64,000 bases of DNA from Methanocaldococcus sp. FS406-22 (lineage in GTDB: Archaea; AGJL01; Methanococci; Methanococcales; Methanocaldococcaceae). The position numbers and the translations under genes are program-made. Positions within the stretch are counted from its first letter, which is position 1; the number at the start of each line of letters is the position of its first letter. The notes beneath the pieces were generated by a model. It ran no database searches and was not told the DNA's origin. It was given only the letters and a program-made list of their open reading frames with translations. Location of the stretch: NCBI RefSeq assembly GCF_000025525.1, contig NC_013887.1, positions 1,374,729 to 1,438,728 of the forward strand. The letters are read 5' to 3'. This document shows, one piece after another, positions 6,482 to 21,645 of this stretch.

Positions 6482-7170
6482 TTCTTAACCCTCTTTATTA
6501 TAGCTAATGAGAGATAATCATTAAATTCATCAAAATCTATCTCATTTAATTTACCAATAGCTATCTTTTCATCTTCAAAAGTGGCTCTCTTTACTAAACC
6601 AATTATATAATCATCTCTGTCCCTAATAGTTACTAACTTCTCCTTTAAATTCTTTGTCTTCATTATAATTATGGTATCAAATTCATCAATGTATTTCTCT
6701 AAATCCTTTCCTTGAGGAAGAATGCAGAGCTTTTCATCTCCCTCAACTAATGGCACGTTTAAAGCAGCTGCAGAGGCAAATATTGATGAAATGCCATTGA
6801 TTATTTCTACCTCAACTCCATTCTCTTTTAAAAGCTTCCAAACATAGGAGAATGTGCTATACAACGTTGGGTCCCCAATGGTTATTATAGCAACTTCTCC
6901 ATCTTCTTTCAAAACTTTTTCTAAGGCAGTTTCCCAGTATTTTTTTAACTTCTCTTTATCTTTAATCATTGGGAATAAAAGCTCCTCTACTTCCTTATCA
7001 TTAACATAATCCTTTATAATCTCGTAGGCAATGGATTTCTTCCCTTCTTTGGATATCGGGACAAAGATTTTATCTACTTTTTTTAAAACTTCTAATGCCT
7101 TTAAGGTTAATAGCTTTTTATCTCCAACTCCTACACCAACACCATAAACCTTTTTTACCAATTTATTCAC
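6478..7170 (-). CDS. cbiL: Precorrin-2/Co-precorrin-2 C20-methyltransferase (CbiL type)
   Basis: This 230-residue protein is a tetrapyrrole (corrin/porphyrin) methylase. The N-terminal glycine-rich loop GVGVGVGDKKLLTLKA lies at about 10-25, and the GDPTLYSTFSYVW segment at about 99-111 is diagnostic of the C20 enzyme of the anaerobic cobalamin pathway. It transfers a methyl group from S-adenosylmethionine to C20 of the corrin ring; methanogens need cobamides for the methyl transferase Mtr. It overlaps both neighbours by a few bases (4 with the ATPase-like gene, 8 with the peptidase gene), so it sits in a minus-strand operon. Length is normal for CbiL. Confidence 0.88.
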   Translation of the reverse strand: MNKLVKKVYGVGVGVGDKKLLTLKALEVLKKVDKIFVPISKEGKKSIAYEIIKDYVNDKEVEELLFPMIKDKEKLKKYWETALEKVLKEDGEVAIITIGDPTLYSTFSYVWKLLKENGVEVEIINGISSIFASAAALNVPLVEGDEKLCILPQGKDLEKYIDEFDTIIIMKTKNLKEKLVTIRDRDDYIIGLVKRATFEDEKIAIGKLNEIDFDEFNDYLSLAIIKRVKK

Positions 7171-8392
7171 CTTTTTGTAGTTTTTCTATTTCTTCATAAG
7201 CTTCATCCATAATTTTCTCCACTTCTTCATCTGGAATATTAAACTCCTTTTGGATGTATTTTATTCTTTTCATTAGTGAGGGATGAGTTGAGATTAAGTT
7301 AAAAATCCCATCTTCAGGCATATGATTTGCATAATGAATTTTTGCTAAAGCTTTAATAAATGTCTTTGGATTTGTGATTTTTGAGGCAATTATATCTGCC
7401 TCTATCTCTTTTTTCTTTGATAGATGCCTATCAATAACTATATCTAAAAAATAAGCACACATAAATAGTCCAATCCAAATAAATCCAATGTTTCCAAACA
7501 ACTTATTAAAAAATTTGAGAGAGTAAGATAATCCACTAAATACAATAATACCAATAACAAACCATTCAAAAAGTCCTATTTTTATATGTTGTTTCTTTTT
7601 ATGGGCTATTTCATGGGCAATTATTGATTTTAACTCCTCTTTTGATAGTATTTTTATCAATTTTATGGTAATGGTTAGTTTTTCATTAAACAATCCAGAA
7701 ACCTCTGCGTTTGCTATAGGACTGTTTTCTACTTTAATTTCTTTAAATGGCTTTGTATTGAGTTTTTTGATTAATTCATCAACCATCTCAACAATCTCAT
7801 AATTTTCAACATACTTTGGTTTTAATATAATAATATCTATAAGTTTTTCAGCAGAATAAAAAACAATAGCTGCTACAATTAACCAAAATGCTATGTTTAT
7901 TGGTATTGGAATTTTAGATAGATAGTTTCCAAAGAATTCTAAGATTTTATCACATACATAGAAATACGTAAGGTATCCAATGATTAGTGGTAGAGTAAAA
8001 ACTCCAATTAGTATTCCAGCAAACATTAACAGTTTTTTTGTTTCAATCTCTGTGTATTGTTTTATAATATATAGAATAGCTAAAATCATTGGGATGAATG
8101 CTACAATAATAAACCACACAATTATTAAGCATATAGAAACAAATTCAGAGATATTAAGCAGATATGCTAATAGTTCTGACAAATTGTAAAATATAAATGA
8201 TATTATAAGTAAAACTGCACATATTAAAACATATATCAAATAAACAATCCCAAATTTTTTGTTTCTATTGATTTTTTCCCTTAATGATTTTGGTTTTTCT
8301 TTAAGGATTCTTTTTAGATACAGCAATATTATCAAACATCCAATTATTGGGAATAAAATAAATAAGCTTAGCCCTAATATTGCATTTTCCAT
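7163..8392 (-). CDS. M48-family membrane metallopeptidase (HtpX-like), paralog 1
   Basis: The 409-residue protein has about five or six hydrophobic segments and a zinc protease motif HEIAHKKKQH near residue 260. A downstream glutamate in KKEIEADIIASK near 325 is the probable third ligand. This is the M48 arrangement (HtpX, Ste24), membrane-bound proteases that cut misfolded membrane proteins or process termini. The C-terminal tail contains FNIPDEEVEKIMDEAYEE, which is nearly identical in the next gene. The two genes are 6 bases apart and are tandem paralogs, with most similarity in the catalytic C-terminal half. Confidence 0.85.
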   Translation of the reverse strand: MENAILGLSLFILFPIIGCLIILLYLKRILKEKPKSLREKINRNKKFGIVYLIYVLICAVLLIISFIFYNLSELLAYLLNISEFVSICLIIVWFIIVAFIPMILAILYIIKQYTEIETKKLLMFAGILIGVFTLPLIIGYLTYFYVCDKILEFFGNYLSKIPIPINIAFWLIVAAIVFYSAEKLIDIIILKPKYVENYEIVEMVDELIKKLNTKPFKEIKVENSPIANAEVSGLFNEKLTITIKLIKILSKEELKSIIAHEIAHKKKQHIKIGLFEWFVIGIIVFSGLSYSLKFFNKLFGNIGFIWIGLFMCAYFLDIVIDRHLSKKKEIEADIIASKITNPKTFIKALAKIHYANHMPEDGIFNLISTHPSLMKRIKYIQKEFNIPDEEVEKIMDEAYEEIEKLQKGE

Positions 8393-8398
8393 ACTACC

Positions 8399-10009
8399 TT
8401 ACCTTTTCTGTAGTTCTTCAACCTCTTCATAAGCTTCATCCATAATTTTCTCCACTTCTTCATCTGGAATATTAAACTCTTTTTGAATGTATTTTACTCT
8501 ATCTTTTAAAGAGGGATGAGTCATAAGAATGTTTAAAACTCCTTCTTTTGGCATGTATGAAGCAAAGTGTATTTTGGATAATGCCTTAATATATGTTTTT
8601 GGTTCAACTACCTTTGTAGCCAATAAATCAGCATCTTTTTCGATTTTTCGAGAGATGTATCTGCAGATAAGATAATCTAAAGTATATGCAAACAAAAATA
8701 TTCCCATAAATATTGTTAAGCCTTCAAAGTTAATACTGTTCAATAGATAGATTGCTATTGAGTAGATAACTGCTCCAATGATTATGAATCCAACAAATCC
8801 AATTTTTATATGAGTTCTTTTTTTATGTGCTAATTCGTGGGCAATAACTGCTTTCAACTCCTCCTCTGACAATATCTTTAATAATTTTGAGGTTAAAACT
8901 AACTTCTCCCTAAATAATCCCTCAACTAATGCATTTGCTACATCACTATTGAAGATTTCTATCTTTTTGAATGGTTTGACTTTCAATTTTTTAGATATTT
9001 CATCAACAATCTCTTTAACTTTATTTAATTCTTCTTCATCTCTTATAGGCTTTGAGATTTTTAATATTTTTAATATTGGCTTTGTTATCTTAGAAAATGC
9101 TATTCCAATAAAGTAATAGAATGTTATCCAAAATGCAACTCTTAGGGGCGTTGGAAGTTTATAAAATTCATTTTTAAATGGGCTTATTATTAACTCTGGA
9201 ATATCGGATATAATCATTAGGAATATTATAATCACTGGAGCAAACATTAATATAAAGAGAATGCTCATTGTTAGTGGAGATTTTTTCAATTCTTTTTCTA
9301 ATTCATCTTTATTTTTTGTAGAGAAACATTTAACCATGTTTTTTGCCGATAATATTGGTGGCAAAAATACTGCAACAAACATGGGGATTATATAGATTAT
9401 TAGGGACATTTCTATGTCAATGTTTAGGATGTAGGAGATGAATGAAGGGCTATCACATAATATCATTAGAGATATAAAGATTCCAACGATATACAATGAA
9501 TATAACGTCATTGAGATGATGTATTTTTTCATAATCTTTGATTTTTCATATATTGAGGTAGCATTATTTTTAAACAATTTATTTAAATATTTGGTATAAT
9601 AGGCAATTCCTCCTATTATTGCTAAGAGTCCAAATATCATAAGGGCTATTGAAAAGTAATTGTAGGAATATTTAACCTTAATAACTCCATTTTTTACATT
9701 ATAACTATCTATTTTTAAAAAACCAGACGATTCAACTTTATTTAGTTTAAAATTTCCAATTGGTGATAGGTTGTAAGTTAGTTGATTGTGCTCTTTGTCT
9801 AATGGCACTTTTAGGTTGAATTTGTAGATATTATCTTTTTTAAACTTATAAATATCTAAGTAACTTAAGTTCTTTATATCTTCAGAAATATTCTTCTCAC
9901 AACTGATTTTTATCCATCCGTAATTATCAATATCTACACTAACATTAATCCCAAAATTATAACTAATCACAAACAATATAGCTAATAAAAAGTATAGAAC
10001 TTTCTTCAT
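8399..10009 (-). CDS. M48-family membrane metallopeptidase, paralog 2 with exported N-terminal domain
   Basis: This 536-residue peptidase shares the C-terminal catalytic half with its neighbour: HELAHKKRTH near residue 390 and KIEKDADLLATK near 453. It adds an N-terminal segment: a signal-like hydrophobic stretch (1-22), then about 90 residues rich in beta-type sequence that probably lie outside the membrane, then a transmembrane segment near 118-140. The extra domain may recognise substrate. The ATG at 10009 follows a GGTGGGAATATG-type site. Tandem duplication followed by fusion of an outer domain is an inference from the unequal lengths and shared tails. Confidence 0.83.
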   Translation of the reverse strand: MKKVLYFLLAILFVISYNFGINVSVDIDNYGWIKISCEKNISEDIKNLSYLDIYKFKKDNIYKFNLKVPLDKEHNQLTYNLSPIGNFKLNKVESSGFLKIDSYNVKNGVIKVKYSYNYFSIALMIFGLLAIIGGIAYYTKYLNKLFKNNATSIYEKSKIMKKYIISMTLYSLYIVGIFISLMILCDSPSFISYILNIDIEMSLIIYIIPMFVAVFLPPILSAKNMVKCFSTKNKDELEKELKKSPLTMSILFILMFAPVIIIFLMIISDIPELIISPFKNEFYKLPTPLRVAFWITFYYFIGIAFSKITKPILKILKISKPIRDEEELNKVKEIVDEISKKLKVKPFKKIEIFNSDVANALVEGLFREKLVLTSKLLKILSEEELKAVIAHELAHKKRTHIKIGFVGFIIIGAVIYSIAIYLLNSINFEGLTIFMGIFLFAYTLDYLICRYISRKIEKDADLLATKVVEPKTYIKALSKIHFASYMPKEGVLNILMTHPSLKDRVKYIQKEFNIPDEEVEKIMDEAYEEVEELQKR

Positions 10010-10890: not shown

Positions 10891-10973
10891 CTTACCACAT
10901 CCTTTTATAGGTTATTTAGAATCTACAATAAAGGTTTTAAGTTAGTATAGAAATAGTTTTTTATTGTGATATC

Positions 10974-11010
10974 ATGGTTAATGTTGAAAGGATTAGTATA
11001 TCATTCCCTA
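10974..11010 (+). pseudogene. Broken 5' fragment of the NikR-like gene
   Basis: The ATG at 10974 and the next 11 codons encode the same 12 residues (MVNVERISISFP) as the start of the intact gene at 11147. The two stretches differ at six bases, each in a third codon position and each synonymous. Directly after codon 12 the sequence changes to the hairpin element at 11011, and the frame closes soon after at a TGA. The short upstream GTGATAT is also duplicated. The pattern shows that both copies were kept under protein-level selection before this one was broken, so this is not a fresh target-site duplication. Confidence 0.8.
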
Positions 11011-11146
11011 ACCATAGGGCTTCGCCCTATTGGTATACCCAAGGATGCATCACCTCGCTTCGCTCGATGATTAGATGAAATCCTTCGGATTTTATTGCTC
11101 ATCTCGCTTCGCTCGATGATACCTCTAAAGTCATAATAGTGATATT
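11011..11146 (+). mobile_element. GC-rich hairpin element (copy A) between broken and intact gene starts
   Basis: The element begins with a 30-base hairpin at 11011-11040 (arms ATAGGGC and GCCCTAT) ending in GGTATACCC. Further hairpin-forming units follow, including two copies of TCGCTTCGCTCGATGAT around 11054-11070 and 11104-11120. Its GC content is far above the surroundings. The same 30-base hairpin occurs in reverse orientation at 42399-42429, differing only in the loop, again beside a duplicated gene piece. There is no ORF, so it would be non-autonomous. The identification as a mobile element rests on the repeated hairpin and on the gene duplications at both sites. Confidence 0.6.
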
Positions 11147-11554
11147 ATGGTTAATGTTGAAAGAATCAGCATATCGTTTCCAAAATTTCTCTTAAAAGAG
11201 ATTGATGAAGTTGTTAAAAGAAAGGGATATTCAAGTAGGAGTGAGCTAATAAGGGATGCCGTGAGAAAGTATGTGTTGGAGAGTAATCCATTGGATAAAA
11301 ATGAAACTGTTAGTGGAATCATAATTGTTGTTTATAACCCAACAAAAGAATCATTAGAAAGGATGAGTAAGCTATATTTTGAATACAATAAAGTTATAAA
11401 ATCTTTGAATCAAGCTTATGTAACAACATCTTGCGGAAAGAATGCAAAAGTAGAGATTTTTGTTGTTGAGGGTAACTCTAAGGATGTATCAAAGTTCTAT
11501 GATGAAATTTCAAAGATTGATGGTAAGATTTACGATAAGGCCATTGTTTTCTAA
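11147..11554 (+). CDS. NikR-like ribbon-helix-helix regulator lacking histidines
   Basis: The 135-residue protein has the NikR layout: an N-terminal ribbon-helix-helix (ERISISFPKFLLKEIDEVVK, about 5-24, then GYSSRSELIRDAVRKYV) and a C-terminal ACT-like metal domain (about 55-135) with GIIIVVYN and KVEIFVVEG strands. NikR normally binds Ni(II) through three histidines and one cysteine. This protein contains no histidine at all and a single cysteine (SCGKN), so nickel sensing of the classical kind looks impossible. It may sense another ligand. It precedes the nitrate-type operon by about 390 bases and could regulate it, which is inference. Confidence 0.8.
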   Translation: MVNVERISISFPKFLLKEIDEVVKRKGYSSRSELIRDAVRKYVLESNPLDKNETVSGIIIVVYNPTKESLERMSKLYFEYNKVIKSLNQAYVTTSCGKNAKVEIFVVEGNSKDVSKFYDEISKIDGKIYDKAIVF

Positions 11555-11639: not shown

Positions 11640-11943
11640 ATAATTATATCTCTTTTCTGATTAAATTTCGCAAAAAACTTTTTATATTATATTCTTGATT
11701 AACAACTAGTCGGAAGCCTTTTACCGATATATGGCTAAGAATACCAAATACATCGACATATATTCAACATATATTCAATGTATATTTTACGATTATCGTC
11801 TCTATATTATACGAACTTCGTCTAATATTTATCCCGTGGTAGTTAAAATTCATTTACTTTAGGTAGGAAATAGGCTTCCTATATCTTAGGATATAGGATT
11901 CCTAATATTAATAATTACCATATCATCCAAAGAGGTGAATATA
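11640..11943 (+). promoter_or_regulatory. Promoter and long leader of the nitrate-type operon
   Basis: A TATA-like stretch CTTTTTATATTAT lies at about 11679-11691. This would put transcription start near 11712 and leave a leader of about 230 bases before the ATG at 11944. Upstream of the TATA the sequence AATTATATCTCTTTT is shared with the promoter of the CGGC gene (about 17505-17545). The leader contains GTCGGAAG/CCGATAT, repeated ACATATATTCA units and a CTATATC-TTAG-GATATAG palindrome near 11890-11907. The length and the palindromes suggest post-transcriptional or operator control. No known riboswitch class is recognised. Confidence 0.45.
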
Positions 11944-13389
11944 ATGGCAGAGTTAAAACAAAAAAAGAAAGTTGGAATCATTGAAGCACTGAAAAGTGGA
12001 GACATAAAGACATTAATTGCCTCATTGTTATACTTTGACACTGGTTTCATGGTTTGGTTATTATTTGGTCCTGCTTTAGGGTTGTTTATAGCTCAAGAGC
12101 TTGGTTTATCACCAGCAGAGAAGGGATTCATGGTTGCAGTTCCTATATTAGCTGCTGCATTGTTTAGAATTCCATTTGGTTACATGTATCAGGCAATAAA
12201 TGGAAAATACGTTGCAATGATGGGAATTATATTATCTGCACTACCAATCTTGTTTGTAAATCTGTTTCCAATAAACTATACAACCCTTCTTATCCTTGGG
12301 GCATTTTTAGGTATTGGAGGGGCAAGCTTTGCTATTGCTCTACCAATGGCAGGGAGTAACTACCCAAAGAAATATCAAGGGCTTGTTTTGGGATTAGCAG
12401 CAGCAGGTAACTTAGGGGCAATGATGGATGGTTTAATCTTCCCACCAATTGCAGAGACCTATGGATGGAGAACTGCTGCTTTAGTAGCATTGGTATTCTT
12501 GGCAATTTCATTTGTGCTGTGTTGGGCATGGATTAAGGATAGCTCACCAAAGAGACCAGAGTTAAGAAATCATGCAATATTCAACTTTATTGTAACATTT
12601 GTCTCATTTATAGTTGTTACTTTGATGTTGTACAGTGGAATTCTTGGAATTAGTGGTAAATTTGGATTGTTGTTACTGCCAGTAATTGTTGGGGCAATAT
12701 CTATCATGCTATTATCAAAAGATTACAGAAATGCCCTCAAAAAGAGAGACCCTTGGGTGTTCATGCTATTCTATGCAATAACCTTTGGAGGATTCGTAGG
12801 AATGTCAGGTTCAGTTGCATTCATATTAAATGGGCAGTATGGCTTTGACCCAGTTACTTGTGGTATGTTGATGTCTCTCCTATCATTTAGCGGAGCAATT
12901 ATAAGACCTGTTGGTGGATGGATTGCAGATAAAATTGGAGGAGTTAAGGTTTTATTGGCAGTATTTGCGGCAATTGCAACATTTGATTACTTACTTGGAT
13001 TTACAATACCTCCCGCAATAATTGGAATTCCTTTACTTTGGGGATTGTTCTTATCATTTGGAATTGGTAATGGGGCTGTATTCCAGTTAGTTCCATTGAG
13101 ATGGCCAAGAGCTACAGGAATGGCTACTGGTTTAATTGGTGCAGCTGGAGGAGTTGGAGGATTTTACCTCTCTTCAACAATGGGATTGGCAAAAGAGTTT
13201 ACCGGTTCTTACGGTCCTGGATACTTAATATTTGGAACAATTGCATTAATTGCCTTAGGTGTCTTGTGGATGTTGAAACATGAATACATGCAATGGGGAT
13301 ATGTTGGGCATGAGGAGGATGATAGACCAATCTCACAGGTTGCAACAAGTGAAATTCCAGTTCTTCAGTTTAAAAAACAAAACCCTTAA
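11944..13389 (+). CDS. NNP-family nitrate/nitrite porter (MFS)
   Basis: This major-facilitator protein of about 481 residues has 12 hydrophobic segments and the two nitrate-signature regions of NarK/NasA-type porters. The first, about 122-155, contains GGASFAIALPMAGSNYPK and then QGLVLGLAAAGNLGA. The second, near 370, contains GNGAVFQLVPLRWP. Such porters import nitrate or exchange it for nitrite across the cell membrane. The ATG at 11944 is preferred over the upstream GTG because GAGGTG sits at ribosome-binding distance. It is the first gene of a three-gene, same-strand set with a molybdopterin reductase and a siroheme reductase. Substrate choice is inferred from the signatures and the context. 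Confidence 0.85.
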   Translation: MAELKQKKKVGIIEALKSGDIKTLIASLLYFDTGFMVWLLFGPALGLFIAQELGLSPAEKGFMVAVPILAAALFRIPFGYMYQAINGKYVAMMGIILSALPILFVNLFPINYTTLLILGAFLGIGGASFAIALPMAGSNYPKKYQGLVLGLAAAGNLGAMMDGLIFPPIAETYGWRTAALVALVFLAISFVLCWAWIKDSSPKRPELRNHAIFNFIVTFVSFIVVTLMLYSGILGISGKFGLLLLPVIVGAISIMLLSKDYRNALKKRDPWVFMLFYAITFGGFVGMSGSVAFILNGQYGFDPVTCGMLMSLLSFSGAIIRPVGGWIADKIGGVKVLLAVFAAIATFDYLLGFTIPPAIIGIPLLWGLFLSFGIGNGAVFQLVPLRWPRATGMATGLIGAAGGVGGFYLSSTMGLAKEFTGSYGPGYLIFGTIALIALGVLWMLKHEYMQWGYVGHEEDDRPISQVATSEIPVLQFKKQNP

Positions 13390-13453
13390 ATTTTAATTAT
13401 TTTTCTTCACAAAATCTCAATTTAAAATTTTATAAAATTTAAAGGTGCTGATT

Positions 13454-15490
13454 ATGAATAAAAAAATAATAAAAACACAGTGTCCATTTTGTGGGACTGG
13501 TTGCGGTTTAGAGGTTATTATAGATGAGAATGGCAACATAAAAGTGAGAGGAGATAAAGAGCATCCAGCAACAAAGGGAAGTGTTTGTATAAAGGCAGTT
13601 CATCTTCCAAAGGCCTTGGATGTTGGGAGAGTGGATAAAGTTCTTTACAGAGAGTCAAAGAAAGAAGATTTTAAAGAAATTGATTGGGATTTAGCCTATA
13701 AAATATTAAAAGAAAAGTTGGAAAGCTTATCTCCAGATGAAGTGTATTTCTACCTATCAGGACAGTTATTAACAGAGGATATCTATGTTATAAACAAATT
13801 TGCAAAGGGATTTATTGGAACAAACAACGTTGATTCAAATTCAAGATTATGTGTTGCTACTGCAGTTGCTGCCTACAAGCTTGCATTTGGTTCTGATGGA
13901 ATTCCGGGATGCTATGATGACATAGATGATGCTGATTGCTTTATATTCATAGGTTCAAATGTTGCATGGGCTCATCCTGGGTTATTTAGCAGAATTTTAA
14001 AGAGAAAAAAGGAAGATGATGTAACAATTGTAACCATAGACCCAAATTGCACAGAAACAGCTAAAAAAAGTGATAAATGGATTCCTATAAAGGCTGGGAC
14101 TGATGTGGTTTTCTTAAATAGTGTGTTGTATGTGCTTTATGAAAACAACTGGATAGATTGGGAGTTTATAAAAAACTACACTGAAGGGTTTGAAGAGGCC
14201 ATCGAGGAGGCAAAAAAATATCCACCAAAAGTAGCAGCAGAAATTTGTGAAGTAGATGAGAAAGATATCTATTATATTGCTGAACTCTTTGCTAAAAAGA
14301 AAAAACTCATTAGCTTTTGGACTATGGGGGTTAATCAATCAACAAATGGGACTATGAAGGCACTTGCAATAATAAACCTTCATCTTGCAACTGGGAGATT
14401 GAACGATAGAGGATGTCCATTCTCATTAACTGGGCAGTCAAATGCAATGGGTGGGAGAGAGGTTGGCTATCTATCAAATGGACTTCCTGGCTATAGAGAT
14501 GTTAGAAATAAAGAAGATAGGGAGTTTATTGAAGATTTCTGGGGGATTGAGAGGGGTAAAATAAAGGATAAACCAGGATGTAGTATAACAGAGGCAATAG
14601 ATAAGATATTAGAGGGAGAAATTAAATTCCTTTGGATTGTTTGCACAAATCCTGCAGTATCAATGCCAAATTTAAATAAATTCAAAAAGGCCTTGGAAAA
14701 AGATGATGTCTTTGTTGTAGTTCAAGATGCATATTACACAGACACCATGCAATTTGCAAACCTTATATTGCCAGCAACACACTGGGGAGAGGAAGAAGGA
14801 GTTATGACTGGTGGAGATAGGACAGTAACACTCTGCAGAAAGTTTAGAGAACCACCAAAAAATGCCAAATTTGAATGGCAGATATTTGTTGAGTTAGCTC
14901 AAAGAATGGGTGGAGAAAAGCTCTTTCCATACAAAAACTCAAGAGAAATATTTGATGAGTATAAGAAGGCCACTAAAGGGAGGTTGTGTGATATTTCTGA
15001 CTTTGAATATGAAGATTTACCAAAAAGATGGGGAGGGAAGCATTTATACAAGGACTTAAAATTCCCAACACCCTCTGGAAAGGCAATATTTAACCCTGCA
15101 AAATACAAAGAGCCAGAAGATGTTAAGAAAGAGGGGGATTTCATTCTGATAACTGGAAGGGTTAGAAAGCAGTGGCACACAATGACAAGAACCGGAAAGG
15201 TTAAAGAACTGCTAAAAGGGGAAGAAACTCCCTATGTCCTCATGAATCCTGAAGATGCCAAGGAATTAGGAATTAATGAGGGAGATATAGTAACAATAGA
15301 ATCTGAAAGGGGAAAAATTAGAAGAGTTGTGAAATTTGGAGAAATAAAAAGAAGACATCTATTTACACCATTTGGCTATGGTTTGGAGTTTTGTGATTCT
15401 CCAGCAAATCTTGTTACAACAGATGCCATAGATCCATTCTCAAAAGAGCCAGAACTTAAGTTTTCAAAGGTTAAAGTTGTGAAGGGGTGA
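13454..15490 (+). CDS. Assimilatory-type molybdopterin nitrate reductase (NarB/NasA-like)
   Basis: The protein of about 678 residues is a molybdopterin oxidoreductase. Cysteines 10, 13, 17 and 45 bind a [4Fe-4S] cluster (CPFCGTGC, then SVC), and Cys133 in NSRLC is the likely Mo/W ligand. Segments GFIGTNNVDSNSRLC, GCYDDIDDADCFIFIGSN and LTGQSNAMGGREVG resemble cyanobacterial NarB and bacterial NasA more than methanogen FdhA, in which the ligand motif is RLCH or has selenocysteine. The ATG at 13454 follows a GGTG site. Its stop (15490) is one base before the next ATG. It most likely reduces nitrate to nitrite. The electron donor is not visible, and generic pipelines may call it formate dehydrogenase. 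Confidence 0.8.
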   Translation: MNKKIIKTQCPFCGTGCGLEVIIDENGNIKVRGDKEHPATKGSVCIKAVHLPKALDVGRVDKVLYRESKKEDFKEIDWDLAYKILKEKLESLSPDEVYFYLSGQLLTEDIYVINKFAKGFIGTNNVDSNSRLCVATAVAAYKLAFGSDGIPGCYDDIDDADCFIFIGSNVAWAHPGLFSRILKRKKEDDVTIVTIDPNCTETAKKSDKWIPIKAGTDVVFLNSVLYVLYENNWIDWEFIKNYTEGFEEAIEEAKKYPPKVAAEICEVDEKDIYYIAELFAKKKKLISFWTMGVNQSTNGTMKALAIINLHLATGRLNDRGCPFSLTGQSNAMGGREVGYLSNGLPGYRDVRNKEDREFIEDFWGIERGKIKDKPGCSITEAIDKILEGEIKFLWIVCTNPAVSMPNLNKFKKALEKDDVFVVVQDAYYTDTMQFANLILPATHWGEEEGVMTGGDRTVTLCRKFREPPKNAKFEWQIFVELAQRMGGEKLFPYKNSREIFDEYKKATKGRLCDISDFEYEDLPKRWGGKHLYKDLKFPTPSGKAIFNPAKYKEPEDVKKEGDFILITGRVRKQWHTMTRTGKVKELLKGEETPYVLMNPEDAKELGINEGDIVTIESERGKIRRVVKFGEIKRRHLFTPFGYGLEFCDSPANLVTTDAIDPFSKEPELKFSKVKVVKG

Positions 15491-15491
15491 G

Positions 15492-17360
15492 ATGATGGAG
15501 TGGAAACTAAATGAGGTTATAGTTGAAACAAATCAGTGTGCTAAATGTTCAACTTGTGCAATTGTATGTCCAAACAACTTGGTAAAGTTTGATAATAAGC
15601 CATACATTGAGGAAGAATGCTTAAGAAAAGGTAATGGGATGTGTTTTGAGGTCTGTCCAAGGGTCTCTTCTGGGAAGTATCAGATAAAATTGAGGGAGAA
15701 TTTTAAGGAGAAATATTATTATGCAAGGAGTGATATTGAAGGGCAAGATGGAGGAGTTGTTACTGCATTCTTAAAATACCTCTTAGAGAGTGGGAAGATT
15801 GATGGGGCGATAGTTGTTGGAAAAGATGAGTTTTGGAAGCCTGTCTCAATGATTGTTTTGAGTGAGAAGGATATTTTAAAGGGGAGTAAGTCAAAATATA
15901 CCGTCTCAACCTTAGATGCTTTAAGAAAGGCTGGAGAGATGGGATTAGAAAAAGTGGCTGTTGTTGGTTTGCCTTGCCAGATTAATGGTTTAAGAAAACT
16001 GCAGTATTTCCCATATCATGCTAAACATGACCCTGAATTAGGTAGAGATGGAAAACCAGTCAAATTGCCAAAGATAGAATATCTAATTGGATTATTCTGT
16101 ATGGAGAAGTTCGAATACAACAGTTTAAAAGAAGTCCTATCAAAGTATGGCATAGATATTAAAGATGTTGAAAAATTCGATATTAAGAAAGGGAACCTCC
16201 TCGTGTATGTAAATGGGGAGAAGAAAGAGATTGATTTGAAGGAAATTGAAATCTGCTCTGGTTGTAAGATGTGCAGGGACTTCGATGCTGAACTTGCAGA
16301 CGTCTCAATTGGAAGTGTCGGAAGTCCAGATGGATATTCAACGATTATAATAAGAACTAAAAAAGGAGAAGAAATCAAAAATGCTGTCGAATTAAAAGAA
16401 GGTGTTGACATTGAGGCTATTGATAAATTGAGAAAGAAAAAGCTAAAAAGATTTAAAGAAGAAGTTGAAAGAAGAAGAAAAAATAACGAACCAGTATCAT
16501 TCTACTGGACTGCTGATTATGGAGGGATTGGAAAGAGAGCAGATGGAACATACTTCATAAGAATCAGGGCAAAACCAGGAGGATGGTACACTGTTGAAGA
16601 AATAAAAGAAATCTTAGATATTGCAGAAAAATACAATGCTAAGATAAAAATAACTGATAGGGCTGGTTATGAACTTCATGGCATTAGTGGATTTGATGTG
16701 GAAGACATTGTTTTAAGGTTGAGAGAAAAAGGACTCATAACAGGTTCAGAGGGGCCGTTAGTTAGGGCAACATTGGCATGTCCTGGAGCTGGAAACTGTA
16801 GCAGTGGTTTAATAAACACAACGGAACTTGCCAAAATCATTGAAGATAAGTTTAAAGAAAGGCCAGCTCCATATAAGTTTAAGATTGCAATTAGCGGATG
16901 TCCAAATGGATGTGTTAGGCCACAAGTGCATGATATTGGAATAGCAGGGGTTAAATTCCCAGCTGTCAATGAAGAAAAATGTAATGGCTGTGGAAGATGT
17001 GCTGAGGTTTGTAAGGTTGAGGCAATTGATGTTAGGGGAGAAATCTCTTACACCAACTACAACGTATGTGTTGGTTGCGGTAAGTGTATAAAAGAGTGTC
17101 CAAATGATGCAAGAGAGGTTAAAGAAGAAGGATTTTTAGTTTATGTTGGTGGAAAGACAGGAAGAGAAGTTGTTGAAGGAATTAAAGTTGGGATAATGAG
17201 TGCTGAAGAAGTAGTTGAGTTCATTGATAAGGTCTTAACTGTTTATGAAAAATATGCACTAAAGCCTTTAAGGGAGAGATTACCACATGTAATGGAAAGA
17301 GTTGGGCATTATAAGTTTATAGAAGAAGTTAAATCACTTATGAAAAATAAAAATACCTAA
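15492..17360 (+). CDS. F420-dependent siroheme sulfite/nitrite reductase (Fsr-type fusion)
   Basis: The 622-residue fusion has an N-terminal ferredoxin-like segment (C16, C19, C22, C26 and C43-C55), an FrhB-type F420H2-oxidising flavoprotein domain (about 65-330), and a siroheme reductase half (about 345-620). The siroheme cluster cysteines are C430 and C436 (CPGAGNC) and C470 and C474 (CPNGC). A ferredoxin with two CxxCxxC motifs (about 497-540) is inserted in the last part. The length equals that of M. jannaschii Fsr, which makes sulfide from sulfite with F420H2. Here it lies directly behind a nitrate porter and nitrate reductase, so nitrite to ammonium is the likely reaction; sulfite remains possible. 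Confidence 0.82.
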   Translation: MMEWKLNEVIVETNQCAKCSTCAIVCPNNLVKFDNKPYIEEECLRKGNGMCFEVCPRVSSGKYQIKLRENFKEKYYYARSDIEGQDGGVVTAFLKYLLESGKIDGAIVVGKDEFWKPVSMIVLSEKDILKGSKSKYTVSTLDALRKAGEMGLEKVAVVGLPCQINGLRKLQYFPYHAKHDPELGRDGKPVKLPKIEYLIGLFCMEKFEYNSLKEVLSKYGIDIKDVEKFDIKKGNLLVYVNGEKKEIDLKEIEICSGCKMCRDFDAELADVSIGSVGSPDGYSTIIIRTKKGEEIKNAVELKEGVDIEAIDKLRKKKLKRFKEEVERRRKNNEPVSFYWTADYGGIGKRADGTYFIRIRAKPGGWYTVEEIKEILDIAEKYNAKIKITDRAGYELHGISGFDVEDIVLRLREKGLITGSEGPLVRATLACPGAGNCSSGLINTTELAKIIEDKFKERPAPYKFKIAISGCPNGCVRPQVHDIGIAGVKFPAVNEEKCNGCGRCAEVCKVEAIDVRGEISYTNYNVCVGCGKCIKECPNDAREVKEEGFLVYVGGKTGREVVEGIKVGIMSAEEVVEFIDKVLTVYEKYALKPLRERLPHVMERVGHYKFIEEVKSLMKNKNT

Positions 17361-17504: not shown

Positions 17505-17598
17505 AATTATCTCTTTTTTCAACTTAAAATTGTCAAAAATCTTTTTATATTATTTAATGCATAGTATAAGCTAAAATAATAAGATGTTGGGTGAAATT
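17505..17598 (+). promoter_or_regulatory. Promoter of the CGGC gene, similar to the nitrate operon promoter
   Basis: The sequence ATAATTATCTCTTTT near 17503-17517, an AAATTGTCAAAAA stretch and then CTTTTTATATTAT near 17540-17552 line up block by block with the region 11640-11691 upstream of the nitrate porter. The last block is the probable TATA box; the upstream part may be a shared activator or repressor site. A GGTG ribosome binding site precedes the ATG at 17599. Confidence 0.5.
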
Positions 17599-17919
17599 AT
17601 GACAAAGATAGTAATTTTAAGATGTGATAGTGCAGCAAAAACTTGTCCAGGAGTTGGATGTATAGCCGCGGCATTAAACAAAAAAGATACCTTCAAAGAT
17701 TATGAGAACGTTGAATTGTTGGCAGTAATAACATGTGGAGGATGTCCGGGAAGATTGGGATTAAGCCAAATAAAACAGTTAATAGAGAAAAATGGTGCAG
17801 AGGTCGTTCATTTTGCAACATGCATGACTGCATTTAAACCAAAGTGCAGATATGCTGAAGAAATGAAGGAAGAGATTGAAAAGATGGGGGCAAAGGTTGT
17901 TATGGGTTCTCACTTCTAA
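17599..17919 (+). CDS. CGGC-domain protein, probable metal or redox role
   Basis: This 106-residue protein carries the CGGC domain: VITCGGCPGRLG near 46-57 plus further cysteines in LRCDSAAKTCPGVGC (about 7-21) and FATCMTAFKPKC. The cysteine pattern suggests metal or iron-sulfur binding; no reaction is established for the family. The ATG at 17599 follows GGTG at normal distance and is chosen over an ATG five codons upstream. It precedes the hybrid cluster protein gene, and its promoter resembles that of the nitrate-type operon, so a role in nitrogen-oxide stress is a reasonable inference. Confidence 0.78.
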   Translation: MTKIVILRCDSAAKTCPGVGCIAAALNKKDTFKDYENVELLAVITCGGCPGRLGLSQIKQLIEKNGAEVVHFATCMTAFKPKCRYAEEMKEEIEKMGAKVVMGSHF

Positions 17920-18178
17920 GTTTTTAATTTTATTTTTATTTTTGTATACTTTATATTTATATATTCAAATATATTTTTATAAAAATAATAAGAATAAACA
18001 TCAATTTGTTCATAATAATTATATCAAATATTTTCAAAGCAAGGGGCATTAATTGTCCATATCTCTAAAAGAAGAAGGTTAAAAATCTATTTATATAATG
18101 AAAAAGAAAATATTGACTGTAAAGCATTTGCCAAAATATACTGTAAAGATGCTTTGCAAATATTAAGATGGTGAAATT
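17920..18178 (+). promoter_or_regulatory. Leader of the hybrid cluster protein gene, with a copied coding fragment
   Basis: A TATA-like ATCTATTTATATAATG lies at about 18086-18101. Downstream, 18122-18138 reads AAAGCATTTGCCAAAAT, identical to 17 bases within the hcp coding region at about 18719-18735; both are followed shortly by GTAAAGATGCT. The leader thus holds a partial copy of an internal coding segment. GATGGTG supplies the ribosome binding site just before the ATG at 18179. The remainder of the gap shows no gene. Confidence 0.5.
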
Positions 18179-19825
18179 ATGAAATACACTCCAAGACCAA
18201 CGAAAATGTTTTGCTTTCAATGTCAAGAGGCTGCAAGAAATGAGGGATGCACAGTAAAGGGAGTTTGTGGAAAGGATGATATTGTAGCAAACCTCCAAGA
18301 TTTATTGATTTATACTATAAAAGGTTTATGCTATGTGTGTGATAAAGGCGATTACTTAGACGATGAAGTTATGGAATATATTCCAAAGGCATTATTTGTA
18401 ACAATCACAAATGTCAATTTTGATGATAAAGATGTGATAGATTGGATAAAGAAGGGAGTAGAATTGAGGGAAAAAGTTATTGAAAAAACCAATTTAAATA
18501 AAGAGGAGCTTCCTCACTGTGCTACATGGAATTATAATGATACCAACGACATTATAGAATTATCAAAGGCAAAAGAAGTTAGCATCTTAGCAGAGGATAA
18601 TGAGGATATAAGGTCTTTAAAAGAACTCATAACTTATGGAATTAAAGGAATTGGTGCTTATTTAAGCCATGCAATGCATCTTGGCTATAACAATGAAGAA
18701 ATCCATAAATTTATAGTTAAAGCATTTGCCAAAATCGTTGATAGTAAAGATGCTGATGAACTCTTTAACTTAGCAATGGAAACTGGAAAGTATGCAGTAG
18801 AAACATTAGCATTATTAGATAAGGCAAACACTGAAACCTATGGACATCCAGAGATAACAGAGGTTAATTTGGGAGTTAGAGATAGACCAGGAATATTAAT
18901 CAGTGGGCATGATTTAAAGGACTTAGAGCAGTTATTAGAGCAGAGTAAAGATGCAGGAGTTGATGTTTATACTCACTGTGAGATGTTGCCAGCCCATTAT
19001 TATCCATTCTTCAAAAAATATGAGCACTTCGTTGGAAATTATGGAGGTTCATGGCCATTTCAAAGGGAGGAGTTTGAAAAATTCAACGGCCCAATAGTGA
19101 TGACAACAAACTGTTTAGTTCCACCAAAGGATTCATACAAAGATAGGGTTTATGTAACAAACGAAGTTGGCTATCCGGGATTGAAGAGGATTCCAGTAAG
19201 AGAAGATGGAACTAAGGACTTTTCAGAGGTTATAGAGCATGCTAAAAGATGCAAGCCACCAACACCACTTGAAAATGGTAAGATTGTTGGAGGTTTTGCA
19301 CATAACCAAGTTTTAGCATTGGCAGATAAGATAGTTGAAGCAGTTAAAAGTGGAAAGATAAGAAAGTTCGTTGTAATGGCTGGATGTGATGGAAGACATA
19401 AAACAAGAGAGTATTATACTGAATTTGCTAAGAAACTGCCTAAAGATACAGTCATCTTAACATGTGGATGTGCAAAATACAGGTTTATTAAGTTAGATTT
19501 GGGAGATATAGATGGAATTCCAAGGGTATTGGATGCTGGACAGTGTAATGATAGCTATTCATTAGTTAAAATTGCACTGGCTTTAAAAGATGTCTTTGGA
19601 TTAAATGATATAAATGAACTTCCAATTGCCTACAACATCTCATGGTATGAGCAAAAGGCAGTTACTGTATTATTGGCTTTGCTTTACTTAGGAGTTAAGG
19701 ATATTGTATTAGGCCCAACATTGCCGGCTTTCTTATCACCAAATGTGGCAAAAGTTTTAGTTGAGAAGTTTGGAATCTCAACAATCTCAACAGTTGATGA
19801 GGATATTAAGGGATTAGTTGGATAA
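18179..19825 (+). CDS. hcp: Hybrid cluster protein (hydroxylamine / nitric oxide reductase)
   Basis: The 548-residue protein is a hybrid cluster protein. N-terminal cysteines [13 protein letters not shown] and GVC (about 11-30) hold the first Fe-S cluster. The ligands of the hybrid Fe-S-O cluster are seen in [11 protein letters not shown], in TTNCLVPP, in [11 protein letters not shown] with [11 protein letters not shown], and in [10 protein letters not shown]. The enzyme reduces hydroxylamine to ammonia in vitro and is known as a nitric oxide reductase in bacteria. Here it follows a nitrate reduction operon by less than a kilobase, where it could remove NO or hydroxylamine made as side products. 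M. jannaschii has the gene too, so that link is inference. Confidence 0.93.
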
Positions 19826-19867
19826 ATATTCTTTTAAAAATTTTTAACATTTTTAGGGTGATATACT

Positions 19868-20218
19868 ATGATAGAAAAAGTTTATGAGTTTAAGAAAGAT
19901 GCTACAACAAAGGTTGTTGAAAAAATTGTCAATACCGAGCATGTTCAAATCAACCATATAGTTTTGCCAAAAGGAGAGCAGATGCCTAAGCATTATTCAA
20001 ACTCCTACGTGCATCTGATAATTATCAGAGGAGAGATGACTCTAACTTTGGAAGATCAAGAGCCGCACAACTACAAAGAAGGAACTATGGTATATGTCCC
20101 ATTTAACGTAAAGATGCTAATCCAAAACTTAAACTCTGATGTATTAGAGTTCTTTGTAGTAAAAGCTCCTCATCCAAAGAAATTAAATGCACCAGAAGAG
20201 CCAATAAAGTGTGAATAA
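19868..20218 (+). CDS. Cupin-fold protein
   Basis: This 116-residue protein is a single cupin barrel. The first motif region is seen around LPKGEQMPKHYSNSYVHLII (about 38-57), and the second around EGTMVYVPFNVKMLIQNL. Histidines 47 and 53 could bind a metal. Small cupins serve as isomerases, dioxygenases or sensors, so the substrate is open. It lies 43 bases after hcp and 12 bases before the next gene, and is probably transcribed with them. Confidence 0.75.
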   Translation: MIEKVYEFKKDATTKVVEKIVNTEHVQINHIVLPKGEQMPKHYSNSYVHLIIIRGEMTLTLEDQEPHNYKEGTMVYVPFNVKMLIQNLNSDVLEFFVVKAPHPKKLNAPEEPIKCE

Positions 20219-20229
20219 GGTGTGTGAAT

Positions 20230-20598
20230 ATGGAACAAATAAAAGAAAACTTAGCCAAAATATTAGAAAATAAGATAAAAATTGCAATGATTTCAAAATT
20301 TAAGGCAATTGAAGAGTATGATAACAAAATTTTTAAGGATTTGTCTGAAGTTGAGATGAAAAATTTGGAGATTTTGTATGAAAAATACCTTGTCTATTTC
20401 AATGAAAAGCCAAACATAAAAGCAGAGGTTGATACAAACTTAGATATTGTAGAAATTCTAAAAGAAACTGTTGAATTGGAAAGATTTTTAGCTAAAAAGT
20501 TGGGGGCTAATTTTGGAGTTAGACAGGCAGTTATCCATGCTTTATCTGACGATGAGAGTTTTTTGTATTTTTTAACTAAAAAGCCCCTAAATTTTTAA
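20230..20598 (+). CDS. Small helical protein of unknown function
   Basis: I do not recognise this 122-residue protein. It is predicted to be mainly helical and charged, without cysteine clusters or membrane segments. It begins MEQIKENLAKILENK and ends in SFLYFLTKKPLNF. The ATG at 20230 is preferred over the GTG at 20224 because the GGTGTGTG stretch serves as the ribosome binding site. It lies between a cupin gene and a TDT transporter gene in the same direction. Confidence 0.6.
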   Translation: MEQIKENLAKILENKIKIAMISKFKAIEEYDNKIFKDLSEVEMKNLEILYEKYLVYFNEKPNIKAEVDTNLDIVEILKETVELERFLAKKLGANFGVRQAVIHALSDDESFLYFLTKKPLNF

Positions 20599-20622
20599 CA
20601 TTATTTTTTGATGGGTGGAAAT

Positions 20623-21645
20623 ATGCAAAACTATATAAAAAATTTTGAATCGTCATGGTTTGCGGCAGTAATGGGGACTGGTGTTTTGGCAGTAACGAGT
20701 TTGTTTTATTCTGAATACTTACCAATACTAAAAAATATCTCAAATTTGCTATTTTATTTTAATATACTACTGTTTTTTGTATTTTTAATGTTGTGGATTT
20801 TGAGATGGGTAAAGTATCCAAAAAATATGATTGCAGAGTTGAAGCATCCAGTTTTAAGTTCGTTTAGCCCTACTGTAGCAGTGGCAATGCTTGTGTTGGG
20901 CATTGATTTTATATTAATAAAAAATAACATGTTTTTTGCAAAGATATTCTGGTCTCTTGGAGCTGTTGGAATGTTTTTGTTCAGTTTGATAGTTCCGTTT
21001 TATATGTTTAAGTCAGAAACCATAAAATTAGATCATGTTAATCCGGGTTGGTATATTCCACCGGTTGGTTTGATTGTTATTCCAATAGCTGGGAGTTTGA
21101 TAATGCCTCATTTGACTGGAATTTGGCATGAATTAACAGTTATAATCAACTACTTCGGTTGGGGGGCCGGATTCTTCTTATACTTGGCATTATTGGCAGT
21201 GGTGATTTATAGGTTTATATTACATCATCCTTTACCTTCAGCAATGGCTCCGACTGTATGGATTAACTTAGGACCGATAGGGGCTGGGATTGTTGCTTTG
21301 ATAAATATGGTTAATAACTCCCCATTCATAACAATAAAAGAGCCGTTTTATATATTTTCTTTTATATTCTGGGGCTTTGGGTTGTGGTGGAGTCTAATGG
21401 CTATAATCATGACTCTTTACTATGTTAAAAAGCTAAAATTGCCCTATGCAATGTCATGGTGGGCATTCATCTTCCCACTGGGAGTTTATATTGCCTCAAC
21501 ACACTTAGTTCATAAAATCTTTGGTTTTGAGATAGTTGATTACATTGGCTTTGGATTGTATTGGCTATTGTTCTTCTTCTGGATAGTAACATTAATAAAA
21601 ACTACCAATAAAGTATATACTGGAGAGTTATTCAAAGAAAAATAA
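20623..21645 (+). CDS. TDT-family transporter (TehA/SLAC1-like; sulfite or C4-acid export)
   Basis: The protein of 340 residues has about ten transmembrane segments and the TDT-family pattern: FESSWFAAVMGTGVLAV at the start, HPVLSSFSPTVAVAM near 75-90, and IPIAGSLIMPHL in the middle. The family includes malate carriers, the yeast sulfite exporter Ssu1, tellurite resistance TehA and plant SLAC1 anion channels. The ATG at 20623 is chosen because GGTGG lies 7 bases upstream. In a cell with a siroheme sulfite/nitrite reductase and a nearby TusA-DsrE-type protein, sulfite or another small anion is a plausible substrate. Substrate is inference. Confidence 0.82.
   Translation: MQNYIKNFESSWFAAVMGTGVLAVTSLFYSEYLPILKNISNLLFYFNILLFFVFLMLWILRWVKYPKNMIAELKHPVLSSFSPTVAVAMLVLGIDFILIKNNMFFAKIFWSLGAVGMFLFSLIVPFYMFKSETIKLDHVNPGWYIPPVGLIVIPIAGSLIMPHLTGIWHELTVIINYFGWGAGFFLYLALLAVVIYRFILHHPLPSAMAPTVWINLGPIGAGIVALINMVNNSPFITIKEPFYIFSFIFWGFGLWWSLMAIIMTLYYVKKLKLPYAMSWWAFIFPLGVYIASTHLVHKIFGFEIVDYIGFGLYWLLFFFWIVTLIKTTNKVYTGELFKEK

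Follow-up and report, generated by a model that had tools for sequence, protein, structure and literature searches.

To our knowledge, the use of nitrate by methanogens was long held to be impossible because nitrite poisons methyl-CoM reductase. A nitrate operon of Methanococcales has now been described by Heidenreich, Gouveia and Wagner (July 2026; PMC13381448), who named Methanocaldococcus sp. FS406-22 as a carrier with a second fsr and showed growth on nitrate and F420H2-dependent nitrite reduction for M. infernus. The pathway had been predicted before, in 2012 (PMC3448663) and in 2022 (PMC9765008); the earlier of these studies suggested that one of the two Fsr of M. thermolithotrophicus is a nitrite reductase and noted that FS406-22 has two Fsr as well. 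For relatives of FS406-22, nitrate growth, F420H2-nitrite activity and induction under nitrogen limitation are, thus, documented (PMC13381448, PMC9765008), the latter by up-regulation of narK, narB and fsr under nitrogen fixation in M. thermolithotrophicus (PMC9765008); for FS406-22 itself, the literature searched yielded no experiment on these genes. F420H2-dependent reduction of both sulfite and nitrite was demonstrated for MjFsr, MtFsr and MiFsr (PMC10202398, PMC10229431, PMC13381448), MjFsr having a Km for nitrite of 8.9 µM (PMC10202398). The nitrate-assimilation operon as such is already known, and the novelty that a preliminary description of the DNA analyzed here had claimed for a nitrate path in Methanocaldococcus does not stand, as the path was predicted earlier and is published for Methanococcales with this very strain named.

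The window, i.e., the whole stretch of 64,000 nucleotides that was analyzed, corresponds to positions 1374729-1438728 of its contig in the genome of FS406-22, a hot-vent methanogen (1,773,136 bases on two contigs). Three intact ORFs run in one direction on the plus strand at 11944-17360: narK (11944-13389; 481 amino acids from an ATG), narB/nas (13454-15490; 678 amino acids) and fsr2, the in-operon fsr copy (15492-17360; 622 amino acids), with intergenic gaps of 64 nt (narK/narB) and 1 nt (narB/fsr2), which confirms the layout of three adjacent same-strand genes reported initially. Among the 36 Methanococcales genomes covered by the orthologue counts, narB was found in three (FS406-22, M. infernus and M. 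thermolithotrophicus), and narK in just these three; the orthologues are 85-86% (NarK) and 79-80% (NarB) identical to the FS406-22 proteins. The narB of M. thermolithotrophicus (L066:6094-8133) contains a single in-frame TAA stop, which, like the limited distribution of narB and narK, is also noted in PMC13381448. Only in FS406-22 and M. thermolithotrophicus does an fsr lie within the operon, and only these two genomes have two fsr copies.

The operon is embedded in an older neighborhood. Upstream of narK, a gene for a NikR-like RHH regulator (11147-11554, plus strand) is present in all three operons, its product scoring under the cut-off of every NikR model; in M. thermolithotrophicus, three reverse-strand ORFs, one of them for an ABC transporter ATPase, lie between this gene and the operon. 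A 49-nt stretch that spans the start of the NikR-like gene occurs twice (10963-11011 and 11136-11184, 84% identical). The two copies are separated by a dispersed short repeat (∼30-60 nt, with about a dozen related sites genome-wide); it looks as though insertion of a mobile repeat had left the first copy of this 5′ end disrupted. Further upstream (7163-10009), two neighboring reverse-strand genes for membrane metalloprotease-like proteins (HEXXH motif) with similar C-terminal halves apparently constitute a tandem duplication. The stretch following the operon (17584-21645) encodes a CGGC-domain protein (17584-17919, plus strand), the hybrid cluster protein Hcp of the hydroxylamine/NO reductase family (18179-19825, plus strand), a cupin, a 124-amino-acid protein of unknown kind and a TDT/SLAC1 anion transporter; the CGGC-hcp block is found downstream of the operon in both FS406-22 and M. 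thermolithotrophicus. Hydroxylamine or NO, by-products of nitrite reduction, can serve as substrates of Hcp. The NikR-like and hcp genes are close neighbors in most Methanococcales lacking narK and, therefore, this gene block predates the operon. Counting hcp and the CGGC and NikR-like genes among the pathway genes is unsupported, as they are neighbors also in narK-less genomes.

Gene identities and active-site residues were established from the sequence. NarK is an NNP-family nitrate transporter as judged by family models, motifs and structure alignment. Its best family was TIGR00886 (257 bits, under the cut-off of 312), and it retains both substrate arginines (in ALFRIPFGYM at 72 and IIRPVGGWIADKIGG at 319, aligned with the structure of the E. 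coli nitrite extrusion protein) as well as both glycine-rich nitrate signatures (AAGNLGAM at 153 and GAAGGVGG at 399), which bears out the NNP porter with both signatures of the preliminary description. NarB, a cytosolic Nas-type molybdo/tungstopterin nitrate reductase, has the 4Fe-4S ligands CPFCGTGC, the Mo/W-ligand Cys133 within SRLCV, lacking the following histidine of formate dehydrogenases, and SLTGQSNAMGGREVG at 324; in an alignment of 27 sequences, it displayed both Nas/NarB features, the metal-ligand cysteine without adjacent histidine and the motif GQxNAMGGRE. In a tree of 27 proteins, NarB joined bacterial Nas with moderate support (85/85), and the formate dehydrogenases formed a separate clade (100/100). 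Motifs and placement, thus, agree with the nitrate-reductase-like molybdopterin enzyme proposed initially. NarB did not reach the cut-offs of the NasC model (449 bits versus 1100) or of the haloarchaeal NasA model (416 bits versus 1000) and was filed under neither, because these equivalog models cover other subgroups. Among solved structures, NapA was its best match (391 bits, versus 352 for formate dehydrogenase). Its best plasmid matches shared 36-40% identity, those annotated being mostly nitrate reductases, and several adjoined nirB or a nitrate transporter gene. A profile search of genome contigs with a two-sequence NarB alignment recovered six distant proteobacterial loci only; an Aquificales origin has been proposed (PMC13381448).

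Fsr2 is an F420-dependent sulfite/nitrite reductase with the domains PF04422, PF04432, PF03460, PF01077 and Fer4, in this order, i.e., the FrhB_FdhB N- and C-domains fused to a single NIR_SIR repeat that harbors a two-cluster ferredoxin insert, as is typical of Group I Fsr; the predicted FrhB-siroheme fusion was, hence, correct. The best matching solved structures were those of MjFsr (7NP8), MtFsr (7NPA) and MiFsr (9TN7), and identity to Group I Fsr was 68-83%. The fsr genes of three of the genomes compared gave bit scores in agreement with those of the three chains, which assigns these genomes to M. jannaschii, M. thermolithotrophicus and M. infernus, respectively. In an alignment of 28 Fsr sequences, all four basic substrate residues of Group I were found to be kept (R357, R425, K462 and K464, corresponding to R355, R423, K460 and K462 of MjFsr), as was the siroheme motif CX5CXnCX3C (C430PGAGNC436 and C470PNGC474).

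The second, housekeeping copy, fsr1, is located on the same contig (1276188-1278044), and its product is 84% identical to Fsr2. Within fsr2, 524 consecutive nucleotides (16566-17089, plus strand; codons 359-533) are identical to fsr1, with flanks of only 77.7% (before) and 76.2% (after) identity. This tract comprises the siroheme core and the ferredoxin insert and includes Arg425, Lys462, Lys464 and the siroheme cysteines. Compared with the fsr of M. jannaschii, it is 86.8% identical, the flanks of fsr1 being 86.7% and 89.2%, and those of fsr2 79.1% and 75.7%, identical; comparison with further single-copy fsr of the genus gave the same pattern. We take the identity to reflect gene conversion; because the tract resembles M. 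jannaschii fsr in the same way as the fsr1 flanks do, fsr1 was most likely the donor. In M. thermolithotrophicus, identity between the two fsr copies is 95-100% for most 60-nt bins within the FrhB part and the ferredoxin insert; across the core (roughly codons 360-480), it drops to 53-70%, and the operon copy has Thr there in place of Arg423. Judging from these comparisons, the two mosaics are complementary, the core having been homogenized in FS406-22 and the flanks in M. thermolithotrophicus. Over their first 58 codons, the two operon copies share 90% protein identity with each other but 65-68% with their own fsr1, and at least the first 40 of these codons are unconverted in both genomes. 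A DNA tree of the 5′ 174 nt united the two operon copies in one clade (98/93) near M. infernus, which rules out that fsr2 as a whole is a recent duplication of fsr1; a tree of the short protein segment encoded there placed both copies and M. infernus in a supported group in which the pair itself was not resolved. This shared, unconverted 5′ end argues for a single origin of the operon fsr, followed by local overwriting. Whole-gene fsr trees are misleading because the parts of the gene differ in history. Neither gene conversion nor chimeras at fsr are mentioned in PMC13381448, and none were found in the literature searched; the mosaic, strong as sequence evidence, looks new and would be a modest addition of specialist interest.

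Upstream of narK (by 64 nt) lies an exact GGAAN6TTCC palindrome, GGAAATAGGCTTCC (11866-11879), which is predicted to be an NrpR operator. It is the sole exact match in the window, and one match per window of this size is the chance level; the argument for an operator therefore draws on where the site lies and on the relatives. The narK of M. infernus, whose genomic context is different, is preceded by the identical 14-mer, and that of M. thermolithotrophicus by GGAATAAAGCTTCC; each of the three operons examined, thus, has an exact operator-type site ahead of narK, the chance of such a site being 0.4-0.7% per narK 5′ region. In FS406-22, motifs of the same family are also located in front of modA, nifH, the nifE region, glnA and glnK; its nif cluster comprises mod genes, nifH-I1-I2-D-K and a nifE-like gene, in line with the published description of this strain, in which NrpR operators were noted for the nif operons (PMC8809328). 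The genome also encodes NrpR, and the locus, thus, has both hallmarks of an NrpR regulon member, the promoter motif and the genomic regulator. The exact site and a degenerate one with one mismatch, GGATATAGGATTCC (11889-11902), together constitute an imperfect inverted repeat, and the latter may represent a second operator. Upstream of M. infernus narK (L067:4063-4178), a one-mismatch operator-like site (GAAATAGGTTTCC) precedes the exact one by ∼100 nt, suggesting, by analogy with nif promoters, that two operators are present. Provided that NrpR binds there, the predicted operators point to nitrogen rather than sulfite control and speak against the operon being induced by sulfite. A text search of PMC9765008 and PMC13381448 found no NrpR operator reported at narK; the predicted site, thus, looks new, a modest addition for specialists.

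Taken together, we are highly confident that narK-narB-fsr2 is an operon for nitrate assimilation, in which Fsr2 is of the operon type with a core overwritten by fsr1 and not re-specialized. In FS406-22, nitrogen limitation would cause NrpR to leave the promoter, NarK would bring nitrate into the cell, and NarB, a minimal cytosolic Nas, would reduce it to nitrite, probably with ferredoxin as the donor and Mo or W as the metal. Fsr2 would then reduce nitrite to ammonium with F420H2, thereby also shielding methyl-CoM reductase. Since its core was, presumably, lately overwritten by that of the sulfite reductase gene fsr1 through gene conversion, Fsr1 and Fsr2 should share their substrates and differ mainly in expression. 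The path from nitrate uptake via nitrite to ammonium with F420H2, as laid out in the preliminary description, is, thus, supported by the sequence and by published experiments on relatives; its novelty and the change of substrate are not.

That the molybdopterin enzyme is instead a formate dehydrogenase, and the operon not one for nitrate, could be argued from its best NCBIfam score, which was obtained with the formate dehydrogenase alpha model, and from its 32-38% identity to methanococcal FdhA. The score of 510 bits, however, falls short of the model's cut-off of 666, SRLCV replaces the (U/C)H pair at the metal, the Nas-type GQSNAMGGREVG is found where formate dehydrogenases have RGQNNVQGACD, and narB is linked to narK. 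Moreover, FdhA is encoded by another gene of this genome, which contains an in-frame TGA like that of Sec-type FdhA. The phylogeny by which the initial proposal was to be judged did not yield clustering with formate dehydrogenases, this placement being rejected (p-AU 4.6e-5); tree and motifs, thus, rule out such an identity, and the chance that it applies is negligible. A role in nitrate detoxification or dissimilation rather than nitrogen assimilation would fit the inhibition of methyl-CoM reductase by nitrite (PMC13381448) and the hcp downstream of the operon, but hcp is an ancestral neighbor present also without narK, NrpR-type operators precede all three operons, and the genes are up-regulated under nitrogen limitation in relatives (PMC9765008, PMC13381448), which makes this role extremely improbable.

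The two remaining alternatives concern fsr2. The preliminary description had considered a change of substrate as a novel specialization, and an Fsr dedicated to nitrite, separate from the one that detoxifies sulfite, would explain why double fsr occurs only in the two genomes with an fsr beside narK-narB; the in-operon core of M. thermolithotrophicus, 53% identical to that of its own fsr1 and with Arg423 exchanged for Thr, has indeed diverged. In FS406-22, by contrast, the four residues are of the sulfite reductase type and the core is identical at the DNA level to that of the housekeeping gene; furthermore, reduction of both sulfite and nitrite is already known for MjFsr, MtFsr and MiFsr (PMC10202398, PMC10229431, PMC13381448). 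Intact residues and the conversion tract, hence, speak decisively against a nitrite-specialized Fsr in this strain, which is very unlikely. Two similar genes of one genome can also collapse during assembly, and the 524-nt identity might be such a sequencing or assembly artefact. Against this, the tract ends inside both genes with unique, diverged flanks on either side, its divergence from relatives matches that of fsr1, and complementary tracts exist in the independent, one-contig genome of M. thermolithotrophicus; we consider an artefact unlikely, and gene conversion remains the preferred explanation.

How the mosaics arose can be addressed tentatively. Possibly, although we rather doubt it, the operon-type Fsr was single at first and its core was re-tuned for nitrite, M. 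thermolithotrophicus shielding this core (Arg423 to Thr) from the conversion that homogenized the remainder of the gene and FS406-22 having it erased by conversion from the housekeeping gene. That the M. thermolithotrophicus core is ancestral and specialized is a guess; degeneration once nitrate use was lost, also put forward in PMC13381448, is the alternative. If the core was indeed re-tuned for nitrite, the two lineages would represent complementary natural chimeras of one enzyme pair, and the substrate switch could be read from the part that each has protected. The complementary mosaics, in any case, reveal where a pair of two-substrate enzymes has been homogenized and where it has not. The window holds one of few complete nitrate operons, in a genetically tractable strain (PMC8809328) with two fsr copies; the pathway and the division of labor between the copies are therefore testable by deletion.

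Compared with known systems, the locus has the same genes in the same order as the narK-nas-fsr salvage operon of Methanococcales (PMC13381448; PMC9765008), unlike that of M. infernus, the experimental subject of PMC13381448, where fsr lies outside the operon. Bacterial NarK-Nas-NirB clusters likewise combine a transporter, a nitrate reductase and a siroheme nitrite reductase and share the Nas-type motifs; NarB of FS406-22, however, lacks the extra C-terminal redox domain of bacterial Nas/NarB, and the nitrite step would draw on F420H2 via Fsr, where the bacterial systems use NAD(P)H or ferredoxin via NirB/NirA. Nitrite is also reduced with F420H2 by an FrhB-siroheme fusion of ANME, the Group II Fsr (an F420-dependent nitrite reductase; PMC9295563), in which both arginines are replaced, by Lys and Gly (PMC10229431), whereas Fsr2 retains both. 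With Group I Fsr (7NP8, 7NPA, 9TN7), Fsr2 has architecture, length and substrate residues in common but differs in being a chimera, with an operon-type 5′ end and flanks around a housekeeping catalytic core.
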